Shown: piece after piece, positions 83 through 21,452 of the stretch
How the letters are laid out: the number at the start of each line of letters is the position of its first letter
Position numbering within the stretch: position 1 is the stretch's first letter
DNA from: Crossaster papposus
Taxonomy: Eukaryota > Echinodermata > Asteroidea > Velatida > Solasteridae
Length of the DNA stretch: 64,000 nucleotides
Assembly: GCA_037893245.1 (NCBI GenBank)
Contig: JBAIAA010000352.1
Location: forward strand, 124,001-188,000
Reading direction: 5' to 3'
Position numbers and translations under genes: made by a program
Notes under the pieces: model-generated
What the model was told of the DNA's origin: nothing
Databases searched by the model: none
The model's input: only the letters and a program-made list of their open reading frames with translations

Positions 83-3000
83 CTAGAATCTCGATGTGTC
101 TCGGCCAAACAACAGCGTCTTGGTCCAATCGATGGGGACCTGCATCCGTAGTCTCCAACTACCCAGACGGGTCAGGTACGCAGAGCGCCACAGCAGCCAG
201 GAGTAGAACCCTGTACCAACACAAAAAAAGATTGCGTCCAGAAGGTGAATTTGGGTTGCGTCTTGGCTACTTCGGGGATTCCCAGCATTTTACGGAAAAC
301 CTGATTTCCCAAAGAATATTCTCACTTTAACAAGGCTGCAGCAAAGTGGTAACAACTTAATAGACACATATACCCCAACCACAAGGGTTTGGTGAAATCC
401 AGCTGTAATAGTGCACAGTTCAATAGCACAGTTAAATAGCACAGGGTGTTGGGATTTGCAAGGATGAGAAAGGTTCCTAGTAAATCACCAAAAGGAGTTA
501 GGGTTAATGTACTTAGGGTTAACCCTAGCCCTCCAGGGTATTTTGGTTAGCCCTGCCAGACGCAACAGATTGCATATACTTTGTCACATTGACTTGTGTG
601 CAGAGTCCAGCAAGGTCAAGCAGTCACCACAGATGCACTGTGCTGGATCTGGCAGGGTTAGGGTCAATGTAATTAGTTGATAGAACATGTAGCATCATTG
701 TAAAAAATGCTGAATAATCACAACAATATTTTCTCTAACCTTGATTCTTGATGACCGGAGTGTTAGTCAGGCCCTTGTAGTCTCCTACATAGGCCAGCAT
801 ACCCATATTCTGGTACTGGAACGGAGGACAATCTTTCCCCGACTTCGTGCCAAGGGACTGGGCCAAATATCTGCCTTGCCTCTCTGCAACCTATGGAACC
901 CGATCAGCACAAGAAAAACTATCCAAAATTACAAAGTCAAACTAAAACCCATTCCATCTGCTTTTACAACTTGACCTCAAATGACCTTTTACCTTTGACA
1001 TGACCATCATAGAAAGACAAGACATCACGGAAACAAAGATTAAACGCAAGCACCTACCTGTGCTGTACAGGGCAGACTGAGGTTCTGTATGTCGGCACAG
1101 TCACCGATGGCATAGATGCTGCCGCTCTGGTCGTCCAGGACTCTCAAATACTCATCAGTAAGAAGCTGGCCCTGTTTATTCTTGGAGAATGGAAGCTGCT
1201 TCACAAAGGCTCTGGCAATTGAAAGGAATTATATTTTGGTATAGATACAGAAAGATCAAGTTGCTCGGGTAGATAATACAAAATGTTTTAAAGCTACTAG
1301 TGCATCAGTGCCTGTTCAAAATGTGCCTGTTCGGAATGGGCAAATTCAGTGGTTCCCCCTTCTTGGAATGGACTGACCATGGAAACAGTTCCGTGAACCA
1401 TACCACTAGCTCACTGGGGAGATCCTGCCATCGCTGAGGTGACCTTGTCCATGCTGACACTAAAGATAAAGCAAAGGTCCCTCCCCCATCCCCATTCATG
1501 GGAATAGACTGACCTTGGGTAGAGTCCCGTGGACCATACCACTAGCTCGCTGGGGATGTTCCTGCCATCGCTGAGGGTGACCCCGTCCGCTCGGACCTCG
1601 GTCACGTTGGCGGTGATCAGCTCCATCTGCCCCCTGCTGCGGATCTTGGCCGTGGCGTACTCTTGCTGCTTTGGAGTAAAAGAGGACAGGATCTGACGTC
1701 CCTCGATGAGGGAGACACGCACTAGCTCTTGCTCTTCCTTGTAGAGACGGGAAACATCCTAAAAAGATGGATGAAAGATTGGCTCACAAAAAATGAAAGG
1801 CCCTGAATATATTTATCCTTTGAATTCTTCTTAAAGCAGTTTAGTATCTCGATGAAGTAGTAGTCCCGTTCAAAGGTTATTCAGGGTACAAAATTACCAC
1901 AATAGGGAGGTACTTACTCAACAGGACCCAACAAACACAAAGTTTACAACCGTTTCAGTGTTTCAATCATTCAAAAGGTATCTTTAAAAGATTACTATGT
2001 TCATATACATTTTCAAGGTTTGACAAAAATTCATTTTCTATTGGGGGATCTAGTAGATGAATTGTTACTCTGATGAATTATATTATCAGCCACAGCAGTA
2101 AGCCGGTCCAGCGTACCTCCCGGACAAAATCGTACAGCTCCGCCCCGAATTCCACCCCAGTCGGTCCACCGCCTACGATGATAATGTGCAGCAGTTTCTC
2201 CCTGTCTTCTTTTGAGATGCCGGGATGCAGGGCATACTCAAAGTTGTTCAAGATACGATTCCGGATGAGACGGGCATCGCGTATCTCCTGGATAAAGAAA
2301 AAGGAAGCAACTGTAATTGTAAATTAGAAGAGAAAACAAAAACCCATTAACCAGTTCGCGCCGACGCGGGGAATTATTTTTAACAAAACTCGATCCGAGG
2401 CAGGTTCAGGCCGATAGTACCGGGAAGCACACCCACGCATTTCCGGGAACACCCATTCTGCCGACAGACATTTACGGCCATGCTCGTGGCGTGTTTATGC
2501 GTCATCCGTTTTGAATCAGGGGAAAACTTTGCATTTATATACATCATCCGGCACGAACTGGTTAAAACATTCTCTGAACTTATACATATGTGTGTGTTAT
2601 TTAAAAAGAAAAAAATGTAGAAAAAATTACTTTTGAGGCGGAACCAGGCTTGTGCTCAGGTAGTACGCACACTTTGGGCTTCTTCGTCTAATAGGGTTAC
2701 CACAATATAATGTTTATAAAAATGTTATCGAAGGGCAAAAAACTCAATACTGATTTCACATTGCCAAACGCAAATTACATCTTATAAATGGTTTAGTTGC
2801 ATCTGTCGCTATATCAGATACGAACCATCCAGCCGACCCCAGGAAGCTCGGTGGCCGAGTAGTACTAGTAAGACAATTGGGTTTACCTGACATACGGACT
2901 GTGGACATTCCTTTGTCTTTGTGTTGTTAAAAAAGGTTGACTAAATACTCATTTTTTTGCTTCCCCAAAACAAATTGAACCTTAAATGTTGATTCTGGGC

Positions 3001-6000
3001 CTCTCAGCTGTTCCTCCTATCTTTTCTATATATAACCCTAACCCGTTTTTCCTCTAGCGCTCTTTTTCGGAGACTGAAAAACGGATTGTGGACCTGGCCA
3101 AGTCCACAAACCGTAACCTTTTCCCGCATCGTGTGGACGTATATTGTTCGGAGGTCCACAGTGCGTATGCAAGACTAACTCATCTGCACTAGCAAGCATG
3201 AGGTCATGGGTTTAGAATGTTTTTTCCCTAAAAATTTACATCCCGACGCCAATTCTATCTTACGAATATTGAATTGATAGTCGCGCACCTTGAGAAAGAA
3301 AGCGTGTTCCGTCACTCCCGGGACGCCAAAGGTGTTACTGACAGCACCGACGCCGATAGCCAGCTTGTCGTAGGCGAGGACGTACATCATGTCTGGCTTA
3401 ATCACACTCTGACAGCGCAGCTCCTGCAAAGATACACAAGACAAGGCATGGATAGCCTAGTAAGGGTAATCCCTGGGCCATAGTATTCAATTGATTAGAC
3501 GTCTTTCATGCAACACAATTGGCCAAACACTGGCGTTAATTCTCATTACATGCTTTGGCCAGACTACATGTAGATAGGCCAACTGTAACTGTTATATTTA
3601 TTCAACGCACAGTAAATAGTAATCTGATATTCAGCAGAGTTGTTGGAACTTTTCTCAAATTTTTTAACAATATAAAACCTAATGGTGGTCGTATGAAGTA
3701 AGGTAAAAAATCAAGCTTGTTGTCGACTTGTTGTTTTAAAGGTAGTATACATCATTGGTAATTGTTTGAATTATCAGGAATGGGTGGATTTGGGGGGTTG
3801 TATTTCATAGTAAATATCGTTTAACTGACCTGTCCGAAGTTTTACAATCATGGTTGCTGAGAAAAGCAAGATAAAAGACGTTCGTTTTCAACCGGAGTCG
3901 GGCTGTTTTTCCTATGTTGTTTTGGTTTTTTTCTCGATCGCCGTCCGGCGATCATGAATTTTGGTTTATACAATTCAATTTTTCGAAACATTTACAGGAT
4001 ATCTAAGGCAATCATTTTGCTGGATGCCTACAATCATTATTTACTTTCAAATAAGTAAGATATTTTTTAATAATTCGGTAGTAAATTTGTTTGATATCTG
4101 CAAATGGTGTATCCTACCTTTAAGTTTCAATTGCAATCTACGGTGAATCCTATTTAGCTATTTTTATTTTTGTGGTATAAAATTGGGTATGAAAGGAACC
4201 ATCAAATTTTTCGTCAATCCAAAGACGCGTTGTAACTAATACGACATGTTATCAAGGAACTTGCAATGTGTTCAACACAACGCAAGTTTCGTGAAATGGA
4301 CTGTACGACACGTTGTGAGTTGCGACGTGTTAATTATTATTATTGTTATTCATTTTTTTCTGGTAATAAAACTAAGGATCCCTCAAAAGTGCTCTAGGCA
4401 CTGTAGCTCGCAAGCTTGAAGAAACCTGTAGAGAGAAGACAATGAGAAGAAGGTACAGTTTTAGAGGTGGAAGGAAAACCCCAGAAGAATATCCTGGGGA
4501 AACCCATGGAATCAGGCAGAGACTGAAAACCCAATCCAAACCCAATCCAAATATTGGCTCAGGCAGGGTTCAAACCCGAGTCACAGCGGTGGAGGGCGAG
4601 GAAATAAACGCTACGCCAACCTGGCTCCCCTGTTGCATCATAGTATTGTGTGAAATCAGGTGCAGGCACGTACCTTTTTGTCAACATCGAGACTAACAGC
4701 TTCGCTCAAATGAAAATGATCAGTTTTCCTAAAGCCGGTGTTCCTCACTGGTTCAATGATGCTCCTGGCAATAAAAAAAACCAACCAATTTGGCATGTTA
4801 CTTTTAAAGAAAGTTGTAAAGATATTAATCCTAACTCCTTGGATACCTTTACTAGAAAGTATCCTGAATCCGCTAAAATTCCACCAATTCCACCAGGCAC
4901 AAATTGTTGCTCAATATGGAGGCATCATAAATCCACTGAGAGTTTAGTAGCATTTCAGGGAGGAAATGCTACTAAACTCTGTAAAATTATTTCTTCTGGG
5001 ATGCTGTAATTTTGAAGAAAATAATATATAAGAAGGTCATTTCCAAAGATGCGCCTCGGAGATGTATTTTTGAAAATCGGTTTTGAGTCGGTTTGAAGTC
5101 TGTGATTGGCATGCACAAGCATTGGCATGATGACGATGTAACAGTTAATTGTCAGTTCAGTGCCTCACACGTGGGTAGCTGCAAACGGCTGAATGAGAAC
5201 GTGCCCCAAAGGAGAACGTGCCCCAAAGGAGAACATGCCCCAAAGGAGAACGTGCCCCAAAGGAGAACACGCCCCAAAGGAAAACGTGCCCCAAAGGAGA
5301 ACGTGCCCCAATGGAGAACGTGCCCCAAATGAGAACGTGCCCCAAAGGAAAAACGTGCCCAAAAGACGAACGCGCTCCAAAGGAGAATGTGCCCCAAAGA
5401 AGAATGTGCCCCAAAGGAGAACGTGCCCCAAAGGAGAACGTGCCTCAAAGCCGAACGTGCCCTAAAGGAGAATGTGCCCCAAATGATGACTCAAATTTAG
5501 ATTTAAAATCAAAATCCTAAAATTTGGTTTCCCTGGAATGAACAGCATTTACAGAGATAAAACTTTATCAAGTTAGTTGTCGAGCGCCCGACTTTAGATT
5601 TTGAGCACTTTTGTTACATTTGTAATTGCTTCTCCTGATAAAAATCTACAACTAACAAATGTTAATGGTCTGGAAAGGTAATTTGAAGAAAAATAAATAA
5701 TCAAAGCTAAGAAAAACACAACATAAACCTGAATTCCAGAGTTCCAACCGTTGTACTGGCTAACAGAGGCGTAAACAAAAAGTGGTTGCGGGGACTGACG
5801 ACGATGACATCATACAGCTTCTTGTCTATGTTCTTGAGCACACTGTAGCTGCTCCAACCAGTTCCCAATATCAGCAGTTTCTGTCGTTTGGGATCCAAGT
5901 TGGATACTGACGGCTGGCTTGCAAATCCACGAAGGATTAATGTTTGGAGCTTCTTCAAGTTATTCGGAGGATTGTTCGGACGACAAGATGAAGAAAGTGC

Positions 6001-6048
6001 CACTGCTGATCTCCATGCAAGTAACGATCTGCGCCATAGTCCTCTCAT
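83..6048 (-). CDS. NDH2: Type II (alternative) NADH:ubiquinone oxidoreductase, mitochondrial, 8 exons
   Basis: Single-subunit, rotenone-insensitive, non-proton-pumping NADH dehydrogenase that passes electrons from NADH through FAD to ubiquinone at the inner mitochondrial membrane. Exons in coding order: 5729-6048, 4674-4764, 3289-3423, 2117-2287, 1514-1758, 1058-1211, 740-890, 83-210. They sum to 1,395 nt (464 aa plus TAG), all junctions are GT-AG and all phases match. Residues 1-45 are Arg/Ser/Leu-rich without acids, like a mitochondrial presequence. The first Rossmann motif is GTGWSS (62-67), followed by [14 protein letters not shown]. The second is [10 protein letters not shown] (about 220-229). 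The third flavin motif is IYAIGDCAD (353-361). The C-terminus carries the family pattern [20 protein letters not shown] and [16 protein letters not shown]. There is no EF-hand insert. Length is normal for the family (about 450-550 aa). The ATG at 6048 is the first in a frame that gives a good presequence. Plants, fungi and several invertebrate lineages have this enzyme and vertebrates lack it. Transcript ends and promoter were not identified. Confidence 0.93.
1361..1446 (-). pseudogene. Partial duplicate of NDH-2 exon 5 end, inside the next intron
   Basis: About 85 bp of the 3' end of NDH-2 exon 5, including its GTCAGT donor, recurs roughly 140 bp downstream in the following intron. One frame still reads [14 protein letters not shown] against [14 protein letters not shown] in the real exon. 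A one-base deletion and further small gaps break the frame, and the 5' part of the exon is absent, so this is a decayed local duplication and not a usable alternative exon. Confidence 0.8.
2347..2565 (-). mobile_element. TTAA-flanked palindromic MITE, family A
   Basis: About 220-240 bp element bounded by TTAA-CCAGTTCGCGCC and its inverted partner (GGCACGAACTGG-TTAA in this copy). It lies in an NDH-2 intron in inverted orientation. The interior has two tandem blocks containing GCAAGGCCGGAAATG, shared by all copies in the window. No coding capacity. Confidence 0.85.
2880..3168. repeat. Interspersed repeat, GGACTGTGGACATTCC family, copy 1
   Basis: Begins near ACGGACTGTGGACATTCC and ends with GGTCCACAGTGCGTATGC. 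The same order of segments (CATTCCTTTGT, CTCATTTTT, CTGGGCCTCTC, ATAACCCTAACCC, GGACCTG-CCAAGTCCAC) recurs at 45305-46003 and 49735-49945. A nonautonomous DNA transposon is likely, but its class was not determined. Confidence 0.7.
3736..4123 (+). mobile_element. TTAA-flanked MITE, family B, copy 1
   Basis: About 388 bp element with terminal inverted repeats AGGTAGTATACACCATTGG and its partner ending CTACCT, bordered by TTAA on both sides. The centre holds a short GC palindrome, GATCGCCGTCCGGCGATC. Intronic in NDH-2. Confidence 0.85.
4350..4632 (-). mobile_element. tRNA-derived SINE, copy 1
   Basis: Reverse orientation. The tRNA-like head (about 4555-4630) carries a B box, seen as GGTTCAAACCCGAGTC on this strand, and an A-box-like GTTGGCGTAGCG on the other. 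The tail contains TCTTCTGGGG and GGTTTCTTCAAGC, shared with the copies at 27205-27480, 40984-41085 and 47985-48186. Confidence 0.75.
5193..5488 (+). repeat. 17-bp minisatellite in NDH-2 intron 1
   Basis: About 17 tandem, slightly diverged copies of GGAGAACGTGCCCCAAA. Because 17 is not a multiple of 3, all three frames stay open for long stretches on both strands, giving spurious low-complexity ORFs. These are not genes. Confidence 0.95.
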
Positions 6049-6335
6049 GTTGAGTTAACTTTTATCGTCTGAAGCATTTTTCAAAAGGTGGTTCAAATTT
6101 GTCAAATTGTCTTACTCCAACTGACTTTTCTACTACTACTAGTAAAAGAAAATCAAAAAAATAATTTGTTATATCTAGCAGAAGCCTTTTCAGCAGGTAT
6201 TTTTACCTCCGGCCGGCCATCCCCAATGACGGAGGTTATCTGTCTGTCTGTCTGTCAGGCTGTCGGGGTGTCGGGCTGTCTGTCTGTCTGTCTGTCGGGC
6301 GGGCGGGTTTTTTGTTTGTTGGTCTGTTAGGATTA

Positions 6336-8630: not shown

Positions 8631-8823
8631 GGGCCAATTTCATAAAACGTGTAAGCACAAAAATATGCTTAGCACAAAAAGTCTTGCTTAGTAAAAAAAG
8701 GTTACCATGTGCATGTCATGCTAAGCAAATTAAGCTGAAAATTTTGTTTGTAATCCTGTTTTGGCCAAGAAAGAATTTTCCTGCCAAGTAAATTCTGTTT
8801 TAAAAAACATGAAATTGGCCCCT
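8631..8823. mobile_element. Palindromic MITE, family C, copy 1
   Basis: Termini GGGCCAATTTCATAAAACG and the complementary end CATGAAATTGGCCCC. The interior repeats GCTTAGCA/TGCTAAGC motifs. The same termini occur at 10362-10622, 34521-34784 and 42551-42797, with fragments at 16795-16880, 30796-31170 and 46851-46915. Confidence 0.8.
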
Positions 8824-9366
8824 GGTAAACAGTTGTCCTAATTGAGAAACCAGACGATGTAAGCAGAGGGGGTTTGGAGGACTTGACAACTGCTGCTGCA
8901 TGAACTTTATTGCAAACTGAAAAATCTTAAAACAAAATATTTTACCATTGCTTCATTTATTGTAATTAGCACCGTAAAGAGATAAAAAATTTGTTTCACA
9001 GTCAAAATACCCAAACAGGGACTACAAAAAGGTGACTATTTTATAAATAACCAGAAGAGAAAAGAAATAAATTATGAAACATCAATGTGGAATAAGAAGC
9101 CCTCTTGTGTCATGATTGGAGGGTTGGAACACAGTACTATGCATTATCAGCAGTGAATCTGAAACATTCATTATAAAAACGAGATAAATATCATTTTTTA
9201 TGTTTAAAAATACCAAATAGTCAGTAATGACTGTTATTATAACTCTTCATACATATATAGCACAATTAATATTTGCATTAATATATAATATATGCCAATA
9301 GAAATATAATTTTTCTTCATAGTTGCTTAAATATATATTCTAATGCACGTTAAACACCACTCCATC

Positions 9367-9790
9367 TGTGACCTGTTCCAACGAAACCCGGACAAAGTCG
9401 CACAATGTGTTTTGTCACAATGTACTCCTGAAGTCATTTCTGGATGGATTTTACCATTTTGAGGTTTCAGGTTTTCCTAAGTCACTCACTATTAATCTAC
9501 AATCTCCTCAAATTTGAACAAAATCCGTCTACCAGAAGTGTGTTTTTTTGTCAATTTTGTGAAACATTTGTGTATAGAAATAATACGCTTTTCTGAACTT
9601 CAAAGCTGTTTATCTCATAATTAGGTTGTCAGGGTTTTATCACTAAATCCAGACCCCAGGGAAGATAGGGTGGGGGTACATATGTAAATGATACATCATT
9701 TTAAAGCTGAGAACCTAGAAAATTTGAAAAAAGCAAAATCTGAAAAACTAAAAAGTCGACTTTGTCCGGGTTTCGTTGGAACAGGTCACA
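9367..9790. mobile_element. TGTGACC-terminated element, copy 1
   Basis: 424-bp element whose ends are inverted repeats of at least 34 bp. They begin TGTGACCTGTTCCAACGAAA and run on to CGGACAAAGTCG. No coding capacity. Related termini are at 47501-47905, 54805-55818 and 21453-21609. Confidence 0.85.
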
Positions 9791-10361: not shown

Positions 10362-10622
10362 AGGGGCCTATTTCATAAAACAAGTAAGCACAACAATTTG
10401 CTTAGCACAAAAATAGTTTTGCTCAGTAAAAAACAGATTACCAGTCAAAACACCATGTGCTTTTTTCATGCTAAGCAAAAACTATGCTAAACAAAAGACT
10501 GAATATCAGCCACAAACAATAAACATCACCTGAATATTTGGTTTGTAACCTTGTTTTCCCCCAAGAAAGAATTTTAATGCTAAGCAAATGTTTGTGCTTA
10601 CATGTTTTATGAAATTGGCCCC
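10362..10622. mobile_element. Palindromic MITE, family C, copy 2
   Basis: Starts GGGGCCTATTTCATAAAAC and ends CATGTTTTATGAAATTGGCC. It lies about 210 bp beyond the stop codon of the PhnD-like gene and may contribute to its 3' region. A SINE head fragment (CGCTACGCCAACCTGACTC) follows at 10645-10685. Confidence 0.8.
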
Positions 10623-10832
10623 AGCTTAGTTGATAGAGGTAAGAACCGCTACGCCAACCTGACTCACTAAACCTGACTCCCTTCAACTTCATCAGTCTGT
10701 ATGTCCTATATACACTACAGACTATTGTTTTCTATCACGAACCCATAGTTATCTAAAAAGAATTCCTGAGATTCCCAAAACACAATGACCAACAAAAAAG
10801 AGGGGGGGGGGTGTTCAATGGTTCATATGTTA

Positions 10833-13800
10833 TTACAACAAACCTTGATACTGATCCAGTGTAACTGGCACAAATTTGGACACCATGTAATGGTTTAGTT
10901 TAGCTTCCCACTTGGAGTCTTGATGCATGTCGAGAAGATGCCTGGCGATAGATGTCTTGAGATCCTCTGAGAAAGAAAAAACACAACAAGAGTAAAATAA
11001 TTTGCCTTTAAAAAGGGTTGTCCATTTTGTACGCAACATTACTCTCACCCAAAACTCACTACTAACTGATGCTGTTCACCTAGGATTTGCATTTGCTATT
11101 AAAAAGTGCTTCGTAACACTTCCATTTTGGCAGTACTTTTAACCCTAACTCCCTAGTGTAATTTACTAGAAATCATACCCATTCTTGAAAATTCCAACAC
11201 CATATGGCAAACTCTACACACAAACTGTTGGACTCCCAAAAGTCCAACTTTAACCCTCTCGTAACCATTAAAGGGTTACTTTTGCCTAGAATCCACCTGC
11301 CACTCACCAGGCAACGCCGTGTTGACTACCCCTGGGTAGACAGGCAGCGGCCCCCAGGAGGTGACCACGTGAAGCTTGTCTTTCAGCTCAGGGTGGGCCT
11401 TCATCTGCAAGGCCAGGGTGTTGCAGTCGATGCCAGTTCCCTCAGCCCTCTTAGCAAGAATCATCTCGATAGACTTCAGATGGGAACCTGGGCAGAATAA
11501 AAGGTCTCTACGAGATGAACAATTATCCCTTTGCAGACATATTTTACAATCGGAGTTGTCCAACGGCTTACTTGGGTGGGACTTCTTGCAAACAAACAAA
11601 CTTGCGGTGCCCGACCCTGGCAAGCTCGGTGGTCGAGTGGTGAGAAGTATGCACTAGTAATAAGAAGGTTGTGGGTTAATGTTGTGCAAACCAGATAAAA
11701 AACCGAAGGGTGGGTCAGTTTTCCTTATCCTTTTAGTCGAGTCGAGTTAGGTCGGATTCGGTTTTGCACTTTCGATTTTTAAGTCGCGTCTGGTTGGTTT
11801 AGCCATCTTGTAAAAAAGAAAAAAGAAAAGAAAACCGGACCCCCAAAAAATGACGCAGTGAGTGATGATACTATCGCAGAGTTGCTGCATTACTGCATTC
11901 GTATTATCGCATCAACCCCCATGCAATTGTGAGATTTGCGGTACGACGCACGCGCTGTAACGTGTAGACCTACGGGTAGGTCACGTTAGGAGTGTTCCTC
12001 ATTGACTGACAGACAACGGTTCTCATGAAATATAGGACGATTTGCCTAAGCCAGATACTCATTTTTTTTTTTTTCTCTCGAATTGGTTTTGGGTGGTTCT
12101 GGTCATTTTGCTGTTTTTTGGGGTCCAGAGTTTTCATAAATGTTTGAGTCTTACCCGATTGGATTACTTTGCCAAAGAAACTGTCCTTAGTCTCTCCTAT
12201 CTTTTTGAGTTCGCGATGGGTAATCCCAAATCCGCTCAGTGAATGGCCATCGTTGTAGGCCCACACAGATCCCTGTAGGTCTTCAAACACTTTATATCTG
12301 TCACTGAAACGTAATCAATGCAATGAGATTAGCACTGAAACACTAAAAAAAAAGTATCAAGGATCGAGGGAGGGGAGGGGAAAGGGGAAAGAAGTAAGAG
12401 GTGGTCAAATGTCAGGGCTTGGGATGGGAGTTATAGTTCCCCTCCTCCATCCTCAAATTAAAAAAATAGACAAACTCGCATTGCCTTTTCCCCATTTTCA
12501 AATGTGTAGATTTAGCCTCAATTCCTTCAAAATCATCGGTTATTTCCTGCATTTGTTCAGTGGAGGGTGACCATTGCCTCAATCCTTCCAAATTATCCAA
12601 CTATCACTGTAATATCTTGAGACAGTGAGGGTGACGTTCAAAGACAGTGAGGTGACGTTCAGAGGCAGTGCCGGTGACATTTAGAGACAATGTGGGAGAA
12701 TTTTAGAATGCAGGGCTCAATTATATGCACAGCTGAACATAAATATAGCAAGGTACATCCTATGAACATCCTCCAAAATCAACCCACACTTTTTTGCCAT
12801 TCAACATCAATCCTACACAAAAATTTGGGGACAAAATGACTGAAGGCTTTGATGATTTAGGATAGCCAGGTTATATTTTAAATAAAACTTGTTACATTTT
12901 AACAATTTACCAATTGTCTTTGTTGACTACGACTTGTGTGTAATAGACTGGGAGGTCACGGCCGTGGAAGTTAATGTATGCAGGAGCAATGCCGAGCAGT
13001 GCGGCCTTGCTGTTCGGTTTACAGTACATGCGTTCGAATGTAGGGGCACATACAAACCCTGTCCAGATAAAAATAAAATAAAATATACACAAGTGTTAGA
13101 AAAAAAAATGAAATTAGGCCAGTGTTGACAAATTTTGTTGGGATACACCATTTGCAGATATCACAAATATTTACTACCGAATTATTAAGAAATTTCTTTT
13201 GAAAGTAAAAATTGAAAGTAAATAATGATTCTAGGCATCTAGCAAAATAATTGCGCTAGATATCCTCTAATTATTCCGAAAAATTAAATTTTATAAAGAA
13301 AATTATTAAAGAAAAAACAAAAATAACATAAGAATAACTGCTCGACGCCAGTTGAAAACAATCGCTGTTTTTCATGCTTTTCTCGGCATCCATGGTTGTA
13401 AAACTTCGGACAGGTCAGTTAAACGATAAGATACAACCCCTCAAATTTACCGATTCATGATAATTCAAGCAATTACCCATGGTGTTTCCTACCTTTAAGA
13501 TCAATCAGTGCTAAAATATTGAAAAGACGTGAATCTGGGACGGAGAAACATTTTCAATTTTGTTTGAAAATACTTTTCTGGACTCTCTATAGACTTTGTA
13601 CACAAATGAAGTAGTGTCACTGGATACTACATCCTTTTCTTTTTGTTAATTGGATTGTCAAGTTTGTTTTTAAATATTACACTCAAGACCTCGGACTGGT
13701 TCTTGCCTATATCGGCATCTCCCGTTGTGAAAGGGTCAATGCGGTCACCCGGGGGACCAGACCACCGGCTCTCGCAGATGAGGTAGACGTAGCAATTCAA

Positions 13801-13917
13801 CTTCTCTTCGAGGTATTCCTTCAGCACTTCAAAGTACTCCATCGGGATGCTGGGGGTGAGGTAGGTGATGAGGCGTAGCCTCCGTGGGTAGTTTTCTTCG
13901 TGGTTATCGTTCATCAT
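10833..13917 (-). CDS. PhnD-like phosphonate-binding-fold protein, cytosolic, 5 coding exons
   Basis: Animal member of the PhnD / phosphonate-binding family (periplasmic-binding-protein fold), known in bacteria as the solute-binding part of ABC importers. Coding exons: 13707-13917, 12911-13058, 12155-12303, 11308-11487, 10833-10966; 822 nt, 273 aa plus TAA, all phases consistent. Family landmarks in order: RLRLITYLTPSIP (strand 1), GDADIGFVCAPTFER (about 66-80), VYYTQVVVNKD (108-118), DLQGSVWAYNDGHSLSGFG (128-146), QSGSHLKSIEMI (168-179), GTGIDCNTL (186-194) and PVYPGVV (218-224). Ser141/Ser143, His172 and Asp190 fall where bacterial PhnD contacts the phosphonate, so the pocket looks intact. 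There is no signal peptide or lipobox and the protein starts almost at strand 1, so a cytosolic location is inferred. No permease or ATPase gene is nearby. Intron 1 appears to use a GC donor. An AG precedes the start codon by six bases, implying an upstream noncoding exon. An ancient bacterial origin is plausible; the introns show it is a true animal gene. Confidence 0.88.
12601..12690. repeat. Short degenerate tandem repeat
   Basis: Three to four imperfect copies of a roughly 25-bp unit around AGACAGTGAGGGTGACGTTC, in an intron of the PhnD-like gene. The rest of 12304-12910 shows nothing recognisable. Confidence 0.5.
13136..13498 (-). mobile_element. MITE family B, copy 2
   Basis: Inverted copy of the AGGTAGTATACACCAT element in intron 1 of the PhnD-like gene. 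The outer end matches ACCCATGGTGTTTCCTACCTTTAA. The left terminus is degraded. It retains the ATCTAGCGCAATCATTT core in diverged form. Confidence 0.8.
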
Positions 13918-18101: not shown

Positions 18102-20216
18102 TTAGGATTCGTTATTTATGCAAGTATTGTCCGTTTTGTTTGCATACTTCATGATGACATTTGCTGCGTCTAGTCTCTTAGCTGTTACCATAATCGAAGC
18201 CATCCACTCCAAACTCTTAGCCTGGTGCTCAACCTCTTCCAGGAGGGTCTCGGTGGGGTTATACGTCGGCGTGTTCTTAAGCAGAGGAATGATAGAGTCC
18301 ATCTCTAAGGCAGATGCCAGCACGCGCCAGTCGTTGCCTAAGGGGGCTAAGGGGTCCAGGAGTATGACAAGCTCCATGCAGAGTTCGTGGGGGATTGTTC
18401 GCTTGTTGGAGACACAAGGGAGACCCCCAGCAGGCGAGGGATGGATATGTATCTGCATGTTCTGGATGCAGCTCTGTTGTTTGTCTTGGTCTTCCGGTTT
18501 ACTGGTTAAGTCTATATCCTCACTGGTGTCGTCAGAAGTTGAATGCGAGGAACACGAGGATGATGATGAAGAAGTCATACTAATGTCTGTAGATGCTCGT
18601 GAGCGGATGCTGGCTGATGAGCTCCTACTCGAGGTGCTTTCACTATGGAACCGTTTCCTCTTTCCGTGCCTACTTGGCGGGAACACCTGAATGACCGCCT
18701 GAGTGTTCCCGGTGGAGCTCTGGTCAAAACTTTGTCTTTTTGATGCCGACCTCATTGAAGCCAGGACTTTCAGGATCGTCTTCTCTGATTCGTTATATTC
18801 CCCGCCTCGCTGGCAGACTGCAAGTCTGATGTCAATGTCCCGCACGTGCTCGCTCTCGTGCTTGAAGATGAAAGAGACATTGGGGCATTTCCCGTGCCAT
18901 AAGCTCAAGAAAGGCACCACTTCCTGTCGATCGTCAAGCCGATGCGACCATCCCTCGTTGACGTGTTGGATCACGGCTACGATGTCATCCCCGTCACCGT
19001 GAAACAGGAACTCCTTGCGGGGACACAACTGCCTGAAGTGATTCTTGGCTTCGTTCTGAATGGCAAACTGCAGGGCGCACGGTGTATTGTTCAGAAAATA
19101 GACTCGGATCTCGTACCGACGTTTGGCTCGCATTTTCCCACCGAATACGGCCAGCTGCATCCACTTCTTGGTAGCAGTTTTTCCCTCGGCCAGACAGGTG
19201 TAGAGTGTGAAGTGGGACACCTGTATCTGTACTTCGTTCTGCAAGATATTGTACGGTTTGTTGCAGTCGTCTCTTTCGCAAACCTGTCGCCAATCTTTAG
19301 TCTGCATTAGATGCGTCTCGCTAGCCACCAAGGCCACGTCCCCGCGATCATACGCGCAGTGTTTGTAACTCAACACAGCGGGTTTGTTCAGCTTCAGTCC
19401 GTGGGGACCGCAGTGCACAACGGGGCCTATAATGGTCTCCTCGTCCGTCATCCCGGGAAAGTCTCCAAGGTCCCAGTCAAGGATGAGAGAGATGAACTCG
19501 GTACGTCCAGCCTCGATCGCATTGGGAGGAATTGTTAGGGATATACCCATATCCGTTAGGACCAAGGTGTCTCCAAGATGACTCACCTCACGGGAGATGA
19601 AAACCACGAGTTTGCTGCCCACTGTGGTAGTCTCGCTTTGCGTCATCCCAGTTCTGTGTAGCTCCTGGAGACGGTGGTCTTCCCGGAAGGCGTCATCCGA
19701 CTCGGAGCCCGGCCCAATCGGCACGGCGGACGAACTCGGCGGTAGTCTAAGCTGTCCGTCGTAGATGTACCTATACTGTTGAGCAGGTGGTGCGACCCCG
19801 GCTTTGGGGTTTATTCTTTCGCCAAAATCCCAGTTATTAAAAGGCTGTCCAGAGAATGGGATGGTGTAAATAGAATCATCTGGCGTGGGCGTGAAGCACC
19901 CGTTTAGACCAAACAGGGCCAGGTTCGTACGCTTCGACATTTTGCCGGCTTTGGGCTGCGAATCACATATTATGACATCCTCAATGTCACTCTCCACCGC
20001 AGCTGTAGAGGACAGGTCATCTATCTCACGGACGACCCTACAAGTCCTGCCGAACCATTTTCTGCACACAAACCACAAAATACAGGCGACAAGAGCCAAC
20101 GCCAAAACGGTACCCAGGATGCTGAATATTATGAGCTTGGTTTCTCTGTCAAAGTCAGATACATCACCTCCCTCAACATCGTCACTGTCACCAAAAAGAT
20201 CAAGATGACGAGTCAT
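18102..20216 (-). CDS. UNC5CL: UNC5C-like protein (TM, ZU5, UPA, death domain), intronless
   Basis: A 704-residue single-exon ORF with the cytoplasmic architecture of netrin receptors of the UNC5 group but no Ig or thrombospondin ectodomain, as in UNC5C-like. Residues 1-27 are acidic. One membrane span covers 28-50 (LIIFSILGTVLALALVACIL), followed by a Cys/Arg-rich stop-transfer. The ZU5 domain is at about 205-300 (LVLTDMGISLTIPPNAIEAG, then IIGPVVHCGPHGLKLNKPAV). The UPA-like domain is at about 350-480 and includes a DDRQEVVPFLSLW stretch. 525-565 is a serine-rich low-complexity linker. The death domain is at about 606-692 (ELCMELVILLDPLAPLGNDW, RVLASAL, then SLEWMASIM). In the known family member this layout signals to NF-kB/JNK from a membrane; the same role here is inference. 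Absence of introns in a 2.1-kb ORF suggests retroposition or an intron-poor lineage-specific family. The start codon is the first in-frame ATG and keeps the acidic N-terminus short. Confidence 0.9.
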   Translation of the reverse strand: MTRHLDLFGDSDDVEGGDVSDFDRETKLIIFSILGTVLALALVACILWFVCRKWFGRTCRVVREIDDLSSTAAVESDIEDVIICDSQPKAGKMSKRTNLALFGLNGCFTPTPDDSIYTIPFSGQPFNNWDFGERINPKAGVAPPAQQYRYIYDGQLRLPPSSSAVPIGPGSESDDAFREDHRLQELHRTGMTQSETTTVGSKLVVFISREVSHLGDTLVLTDMGISLTIPPNAIEAGRTEFISLILDWDLGDFPGMTDEETIIGPVVHCGPHGLKLNKPAVLSYKHCAYDRGDVALVASETHLMQTKDWRQVCERDDCNKPYNILQNEVQIQVSHFTLYTCLAEGKTATKKWMQLAVFGGKMRAKRRYEIRVYFLNNTPCALQFAIQNEAKNHFRQLCPRKEFLFHGDGDDIVAVIQHVNEGWSHRLDDRQEVVPFLSLWHGKCPNVSFIFKHESEHVRDIDIRLAVCQRGGEYNESEKTILKVLASMRSASKRQSFDQSSTGNTQAVIQVFPPSRHGKRKRFHSESTSSRSSSASIRSRASTDISMTSSSSSSCSSHSTSDDTSEDIDLTSKPEDQDKQQSCIQNMQIHIHPSPAGGLPCVSNKRTIPHELCMELVILLDPLAPLGNDWRVLASALEMDSIIPLLKNTPTYNPTETLLEEVEHQAKSLEWMASIMVTAKRLDAANVIMKYANKTDNTCINNES

Positions 20217-21452
20217 TTTGCTTTGTTTAACTTTAGGACTAGACCAGTCAGTGAGGGTTGATACAGACGGCTAAGTTATAAGCAATCCCGACAAGTGAAA
20301 TGGTCACAGCCAGTCTGCCAAATTAAACCCTAAGCGTTGAAAAGTGGACTGCAGCAATCCCTTGGTACTGGTATTTTTCGTTGTCGCAATGACTCACGGT
20401 TACTATGTGAGACTTTGAAGTACTATAGCTGCCATGCTATGACAGCTGATGTAAATGTACATGCAAACATACTTAGCTACACGAATAAAACTGTTTGTTA
20501 GTTGGTTAAGTCGTTAAGGTTATAATGCAGTAGTGTCTGTACATCACGTTACAACTATGGTAGGCCTACTCAGAGATCTGGGTCTTGATAATGCGCACAA
20601 ACGGATTGAATTTCGAAATATTAAAACTTAAAGCTAAAGTTTTATACTGCGTGTCTTGATTTGGTAGTAAAAACAACAACTCCAAATCTAATTTAAATTA
20701 TAGAACTTTTGAGACATGTATGAAGATTAACGCAAATGCTAAAAACCCATCTAAAACTCCAAATCGCACTGATTCAAGCAATTTGATGTTTTGTCAATGC
20801 ACGCCGCAATTTGTAGATAAAAAAACACGTATTTAAAAGTGGCATATCATAAATATCTAAATGTAACTGGACTCTTCGGCCATGCATATCGCCTCTATAC
20901 GATCACATCCTAATTAAACGCCAATTAAAAACTTGCTTCTCATATGAAAGTACGCTTTATTAATTTTGTTTAGAGTGACTTGGATTTTTGGAATGTTCTT
21001 GCAGTAGACGATGCCTTTAATTCTCTTCCTTTCTGGACTCTGGTCTACGAGGTTGTTTAGAGCAGCGGTAGCACGTTATCTTATGTCAACTTTGTTCGAA
21101 GCCCACACGGACACCAAAAGGAACGTCCCATTTGATTCACGATAGCCTTTGGACCTTAATTATTCGCCCTGTATCAGATCGTCAGATAAATAGGCCTACA
21201 CCGTATTGGCATTTGGCAAACAAAGGTTTGGTTGCCTGGTAACCCTACTTTTGGGTGCTGAGGAGAAAAGTGGAGGGAAATCCCCATATGATCGTTCTAT
21301 TGTTTGTCTCGTCACCTTTGCTCCTGTTTTGATACAAAATACTGCAACTAGCCACATCAACAACACCGATTCGAAGAAAATAAAAACTGTACAATTACAA
21401 GGCGGGTCAGAAACTAGTCTTGTTTGTATTGTCGTTTGCAAGTGTGTGCATT
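20217..21452. other. Intergenic stretch without recognised features
   Basis: Upstream of the UNC5C-like ORF. It should contain that gene's promoter and 5' UTR, but I recognise no TATA-like or other element with confidence. No coding exon or clear repeat was seen. Confidence 0.5.

Follow-up and report, generated by a model that had tools for sequence, protein, structure and literature searches.

AioX, ArrX and ArxX are bacterial sensors of arsenic oxyanions that belong to the PF12974 family, reach the periplasm by means of a leader and are encoded next to a sensor kinase and a regulator. The ligand residues of AioX are Tyr88, Cys106, Tyr131, Ser161, Ser163, His192 and Asp210, and Cys106 binds arsenite (PMC5908839; this and the other papers given by PMC number are cited from excerpts). 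PhnD of Escherichia coli, a secreted transporter subunit of the same Pfam family, binds the amine of 2-aminoethylphosphonate with E177 and D205, and has Gly65 and Asn175 where AioX has Cys106 and Asp210 (PMC5700983, PMC5908839). PtxB and PhnD1, which bind phosphite and phosphate, are secreted subunits of ATP-binding cassette (ABC) transporters (PMC5700983, PMC10284923). The family also contains BstB, a sterol binder with a hydrophobic cleft (PMC10942540), which is compared here by description only. Here we describe a five-exon gene for a PF12974 protein on the minus strand of a 64,000-nucleotide stretch (the window) of the genome of the sea star Crossaster papposus (assembly GCA_037893245.1, 1.02 Gb in 1841 contigs; contig JBAIAA010000352.1, positions 124,001 to 188,000). 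A search of the open-licence literature, exhaustive only for the terms PF12974 and Phosphonate-bd, returned no description of an animal protein of this family, and the gene looks unusual for an animal. From its sequence and that of its relatives we lean, with modest confidence, towards reading it as a nuclear gene of the animal with bacterial ancestry, whose leaderless product binds or senses a small oxyanion and belongs, within PF12974, to the AioX/ArrX type.

The five exons (Table 1), rejoined in frame, encoded 273 amino acids followed by a stop codon. This exactly reproduced the span and length given in an earlier note on this DNA, which had proposed a PhnD-like binding protein that lacks an export signal and whose phosphonate pocket is apparently intact. 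The phases of the four introns matched, and the reading frame was open across all five exons. Intron 1 was of the GC-AG type, with the donor context AG/GCAAGA (the slash marks the junction); the other three donors were GT and all four acceptors were AG. The GC donor yielded DIGFVCAP, which aligned without gaps to DLAFICGLP of a bacterial relative, and an alternative GT donor would place eight more residues ahead of FVCAP, giving 281 amino acids in total. Residues 65–269 matched PF12974 at 85.5 bits (cut-off, 27; E = 4.6e-24), which confirmed the proposed family. In tblastn searches with bacterial relatives, exon 3 (E down to 2e-11) and exon 4 (E about 1e-8) were each matched separately, so that the similarity to the family does not depend on how the exons are joined. 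The gene is real, and its similarity to PF12974 is far beyond chance. A scan of the 64-kb window for further copies matched the gene's own exons only. A PF12974 search of the assembly missed even these exons and therefore carries no information on paralogues.

Searched alone against the Protein Data Bank (PDB), the animal protein matched eight sequences at E up to 10. These were AioX (1.2e-11), ArrX (5e-10), PtxB-type chains (1e-4 to 5e-4) and, as the only other match, a hybrid-cluster protein (0.37); E. coli PhnD was not among the eight. A profile built from 17 rows, the animal protein and 16 leaderless bacterial proteins, and thus mostly a statement about the bacterial relatives, ranked ArrX (9.2e-39) and AioX (2.9e-38) ahead of PtxB (8.2e-21), E. 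coli PhnD (6.5e-15 to 1e-14), PhnD1 (2e-12) and HtxB (about 2e-7), and also matched part of transferrin (from 2e-7). The NCBIfam equivalog model for PhnD, TIGR03431, gave 74.4 bits, well short of its cut-off of 261.1. Judged by these comparisons, PhnD is the wrong name for the protein, and AioX/ArrX-like is the closer one, minus the periplasmic location of AioX.

The binding pocket was examined in an alignment of the animal protein with AioX of strain NT-26, E. coli PhnD and 56 bacterial rows, from which L039, L042 and proteins shorter than 250 amino acids had been left out and to which L059 had been put back. Six of the seven AioX pocket residues were identical in the animal protein (Cys74, Tyr109, Ser141, Ser143, His172 and Asp190), and the same six were present in 56/56 bacterial rows; the residue corresponding to the seventh, Tyr88, differed between alignments. 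Across the 53 rows used for the phylogeny below, Tyr109, His172 and Ser141 were invariant, and the cysteine was conserved in 50 rows, the aspartate in 51 and Ser143 in 49 (threonine in the other four). The earlier note had placed Ser141, Ser143, His172 and Asp190 where PhnD holds the phosphonate group. This held for the first three, which align with ligand residues common to PhnD and AioX, and failed for Asp190, since PhnD has Asn175 at that position and AioX has Asp210. What is retained is an oxyanion pocket, with Ser141, Ser143, His172 and Tyr109 matching that of the family. Relative to AioX, the animal protein differs in its host, in lacking a leader, in having Tyr220 for Pro240 and probably in having Trp52 for Tyr88.

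The protein model begins with MMNDNHEENYPRRLRLITYL, and its first 30 residues include three basic and five acidic ones. Inspection and net charge revealed no signal peptide. When the 4178 bp upstream were scanned strictly, requiring an ATG exon to have both a hydrophobic core and a phase-0 donor, 0 candidates emerged (mean of shuffled sequences, 0.42), which is mild evidence against a missed signal exon. The absence of an export signal was thus borne out for the gene model, and the protein is most likely cytosolic, unlike PhnD and the AioX, ArrX and ArxX sensors.

The lack of a leader is shared with the best-scoring relatives, which by sequence score are leaderless bacterial proteins, mostly cyanobacterial. 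A search of plasmids returned 62 records, the three best of them from cyanobacteria. A scan restricted by two peptide patterns, which favour the cyanobacterial rows used, covered 84,980 prokaryote genomes and returned 57 loci, 55 of which we take to be cyanobacterial. In whole-genome samples, 27 of 398 genomes matched for the phylum of a Duganella locus (E up to 1e-8) and 18 of 386 for that of locus L005 (E up to 1e-10); these samples cover the two phyla only and no eukaryotes, and closer relatives may exist elsewhere. Two scans of viral contigs found no relative. The best E-value among the leaderless cyanobacterial proteins was 4e-37 (L004), and their identity to the animal protein was about 24–31%. 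Some genes may have been fetched under two loci; among 83 rows, one pair was identical.

Leaders were assessed in 63 rows outside the Pseudomonadota set. In 40 of them fewer than 20 residues separated the upstream in-frame stop from strand 1, and a leader can therefore hardly fit. A hydrophobic stretch ahead of strand 1 occurred in one of the 63 rows (L101) and in 18 of the 20 Pseudomonadota controls (L064–L083), the set that we call secreted, a label given by origin. The leaderless group was defined by the missing leader together with the residues C, Y, S, S, H and D, and the animal protein has both. The leaderless cyanobacterial proteins (among L001–L058; W type L005, L085 and L100) are alike in these features, and those of the W type share with the animal a Trp at the position of Trp52. 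This residue was found in 4/53 rows (the animal and the three W-type proteins), although its placement is unsure. Since the best-scoring bacterial relatives are leaderless too, the missing leader alone is no sign of a new role in the animal.

For the phylogeny, 86 rows were thinned at 75% identity to 53; of the later cyanobacterial rows only L085, L087, L088, L090, L093, L100 and L101 had been added. The resulting tree placed the animal protein inside the leaderless clade with a support of 94/94, just below the level starred by the tool. Joining it to the secreted side was rejected (p = 0.030), whereas joining it to L005, L085 and L100 was not (p = 0.216). In a second, thinned tree, from which four long bacterial rows (L059, PhnD, L080 and L082) and every second cyanobacterial row had been removed, the split of the leaderless proteins plus the animal from the rest received 100/100, and L005, L085 and L100 no longer formed one group. 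A bacterial ancestry of the animal gene is likely from these sequences, with the direction of transfer being what we infer. The position among the leaderless bacterial proteins, where the 53-row tree places the gene, appears less certain from the thinned tree.

Table 1. Exons and pocket codons of the PF12974 gene of C. papposus (positions in the window).
Feature	Positions	Strand	Basis
Exon 1 (codons 1–70 and first base of codon 71), GC donor	13707..13917	-	gene rebuilt from sequence
Exon 2	12911..13058	-	gene rebuilt from sequence
Exon 3	12155..12303	-	rebuilt gene; matched alone by bacterial relatives
Exon 4	11308..11487	-	rebuilt gene; matched alone by bacterial relatives
Exon 5, including stop codon	10833..10966	-	gene rebuilt from sequence
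Cys74 codon, equivalent of AioX Cys106	13048..13050	-	alignments; codon checked
Ser141-Leu142-Ser143 codons, oxyanion loop	12234..12242	-	alignments; codons checked
His172 codon, equivalent of AioX His192	11480..11482	-	alignments; codon checked
Asp190 codon, equivalent of AioX Asp210	11426..11428	-	alignments; codon checked

If the gene encodes a leaderless oxyanion binder, its two lobes, predicted from sequence profiles alone, would close around a small oxyanion. Ser141, Ser143, His172 and Tyr109 would hold the ion, and Asp190 and Cys74 would contribute further contacts. Like Cys106 of AioX, Cys74 could bind a thiol-reactive species, for instance arsenite, which makes arsenite a possible ligand. 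The protein would most likely act in the cytosol by binding, buffering or sensing, and the change in shape between the bound and unbound states would be passed to a putative partner. A narrower version, argued by analogy, is that a captured bacterial arsenic-oxyanion sensor has become a cytosolic arsenite or arsenate receptor in the animal, with Cys74 taking arsenite and the closed form signalling to, or feeding, arsenic detoxification; this we consider doubtful.

Several observations weigh against a leaderless oxyanion binder of the AioX/ArrX type. Full-length identity to any relative was about 31% at most, the branch leading to the animal protein was long (about 2.6 changes per column), and a position on the secreted side was not rejected in the thinned tree (p = 0.423). 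By spacing, Tyr88 of AioX corresponded to Trp52 in one alignment, and to another residue in the other. Tyr220 falls where phosphite binders have their capping tyrosine, so that phosphate or phosphite may be the ligand, and a phosphate ion has been seen in an AioX crystal (PMC5908839). AioX and ArrX have a common pocket but take different oxyanions (PMC5908839), and the pocket residues therefore do not fix the ligand. Finally, no arsenic-specific family was detected among the 20 open reading frames (ORFs) scanned, namely 19 neighbours and the protein of L005 itself.

The ligand is the point on which a partly overlapping alternative turns, a binder of phosphate or phosphite, or of a sulfur oxyanion (thiosulfate or tetrathionate), and not of arsenic. 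We regard this as possible, at a clearly lower probability than the oxyanion binder in general, with which it overlaps (our estimates accordingly do not sum to one); it differs from the arsenic receptor outlined above. Tyr220, seen in the animal alone among the 53 rows, lies at the position of the capping tyrosine of PtxB (PMC5700983), a match that comes from alignment alone, and the animal protein further resembles PtxB and PhnD1 in its Ser-x-Ser and His, with weaker profile matches than to AioX and ArrX. Sulfur oxyanions are possible because the tetrathionate sensor TtrS and a thiosulfate sensor use the PF12974 domain (PMC5408782, PMC11293645). The phosphate in the AioX crystal would fit a phosphate ligand, whereas, according to the excerpt, calorimetry detected no phosphate binding by AioX (PMC5908839), and the pair Cys74 and Asp190 is present in AioX and absent from PhnD. 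A phosphonate ligand, as suggested in the earlier note, is quite unlikely. On this reading the protein would bind 2-aminoethylphosphonate or another phosphonate and serve in the turnover of phosphonate lipids; the note pointed to 2-aminoethylphosphonate lipids in marine invertebrates. Membership of PF12974 and the Ser, Ser, His and Tyr part of the pocket are indeed common to PhnD and the animal protein. However, PhnD E177, D205, G65 and N175 are replaced by Asn192, Tyr220, Cys74 and Asp190, which removes both residues that bind the amine; the equivalog cut-off was missed, and AioX and ArrX were far better matches. A strict phosphonate pocket was thus rejected residue by residue, and the claim of an intact one found no support.

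Alternatives that concern the nature of the gene product, and not its ligand, were also considered. Thi5/NMT1 and MqnA/MqnD are enzymes on a binding-protein fold, and an enzyme of this kind would agree with the missing leader and with the conserved Cys, His, Asp and Tyr in the cleft. In AioX, a sensor, these residues serve to bind the ligand, and no such enzyme was among the 38 PDB profile matches at E up to 1e-3, which did include transferrins (a comparison of sequences only); we find an enzyme unlikely. Equally improbable is a secreted or organellar protein whose signal or transit peptide lies on a missed upstream exon. A 5' exon may exist because a possible splice acceptor sits six bases ahead of the ATG (CCCTAG/GTCAGCATG), with a T-rich tract farther upstream and an open frame from the acceptor onwards. 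The empty upstream scan, the charged residues at the start of the model and the leaderless state of the best-scoring bacterial relatives speak against an export signal on such an exon. Bacterial contamination or a dead gene is very improbable. Another contig of the assembly, C8, does carry a bacterial-looking stretch, but the gene studied here has four phase-matched introns, an open frame over five exons and all six pocket residues, and it adjoins a gene with ZU5 and UPA matches.

The leaderless bacterial genes have conserved neighbours. At 42 of 59 loci, mostly cyanobacterial, a convergent gene for a tetratricopeptide repeat (TPR) protein lay within 1.5 kb downstream. A gene for a small membrane protein with one helix lay just upstream on the same strand at 29/59 loci (two more were too short to judge), and 26 of these 29 genes overlapped the start of the longest frame of the family gene. 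At loci such as L013, L017 and L027 the overlap with the start of the leaderless gene was a few bases, which suggests translational coupling. These neighbours are a feature of the leaderless bacterial loci, and no animal equivalent was demonstrated; two bacterial TPR proteins, used as tblastn queries against the animal window, gave no match. An organosulfur context was considered and dropped, as a luciferase-like monooxygenase was counted at 15/59 loci by linked clusters anywhere in the flanks and at 4/59 within 6 kb on a stricter count. Among the three W-type relatives, L100 (in L103) had, as judged by eye, a kinase and a regulator, both on the same strand and with a single gene in between; AioX too lies next to such a pair. 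At L102 a regulator lay about 7 kb away, and the 4.9-kb contig of L005 showed neither a kinase nor a regulator.

The next gene upstream of the animal gene (18108–20270, minus strand) matched ZU5 and UPA, with a weak match to the Death domain; it is an intronless open frame of 721 codons and UNC5-like. A C2 match was found farther along the window, in which eight ORFs were scanned. The contig looks animal, since the introns and the ZU5/UPA and C2 neighbours fit such an origin. Exons at 1414–6054 on the minus strand resembled, by eye, a type II NADH dehydrogenase, and the exon at 1414–1758 had a weak Pyr_redox_2 match below the cut-off. Two 34-base arms (9367–9400 and 9757–9790), fully complementary and separated by 356 bases, form the terminal inverted repeats of a small element at 9367–9790, perhaps a miniature inverted-repeat transposable element. 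Similar stretches with TTTCATAAAAC...TAAGCACAA motifs at 8640–8830 and 10363–10624 appeared by eye to be a dispersed repeat. The bacterial-looking genes on contig C8 (L063, around position 2522542) were intronless; by eye they included a methyltransferase-like gene and one for a solute-binding protein whose start is hydrophobic. This contig may derive from a symbiont or a contaminant.

If the gene does encode a leaderless oxyanion binder, an oxyanion receptor domain of bacterial type would have been retained by an animal, as a free protein of the cytosol. This would provide a concrete protein for asking how an animal senses arsenite, phosphate or sulfur oxyanions within its cells. The gene also puts a spotlight on its leaderless bacterial counterparts, a group of the same kind whose neighbours are conserved.

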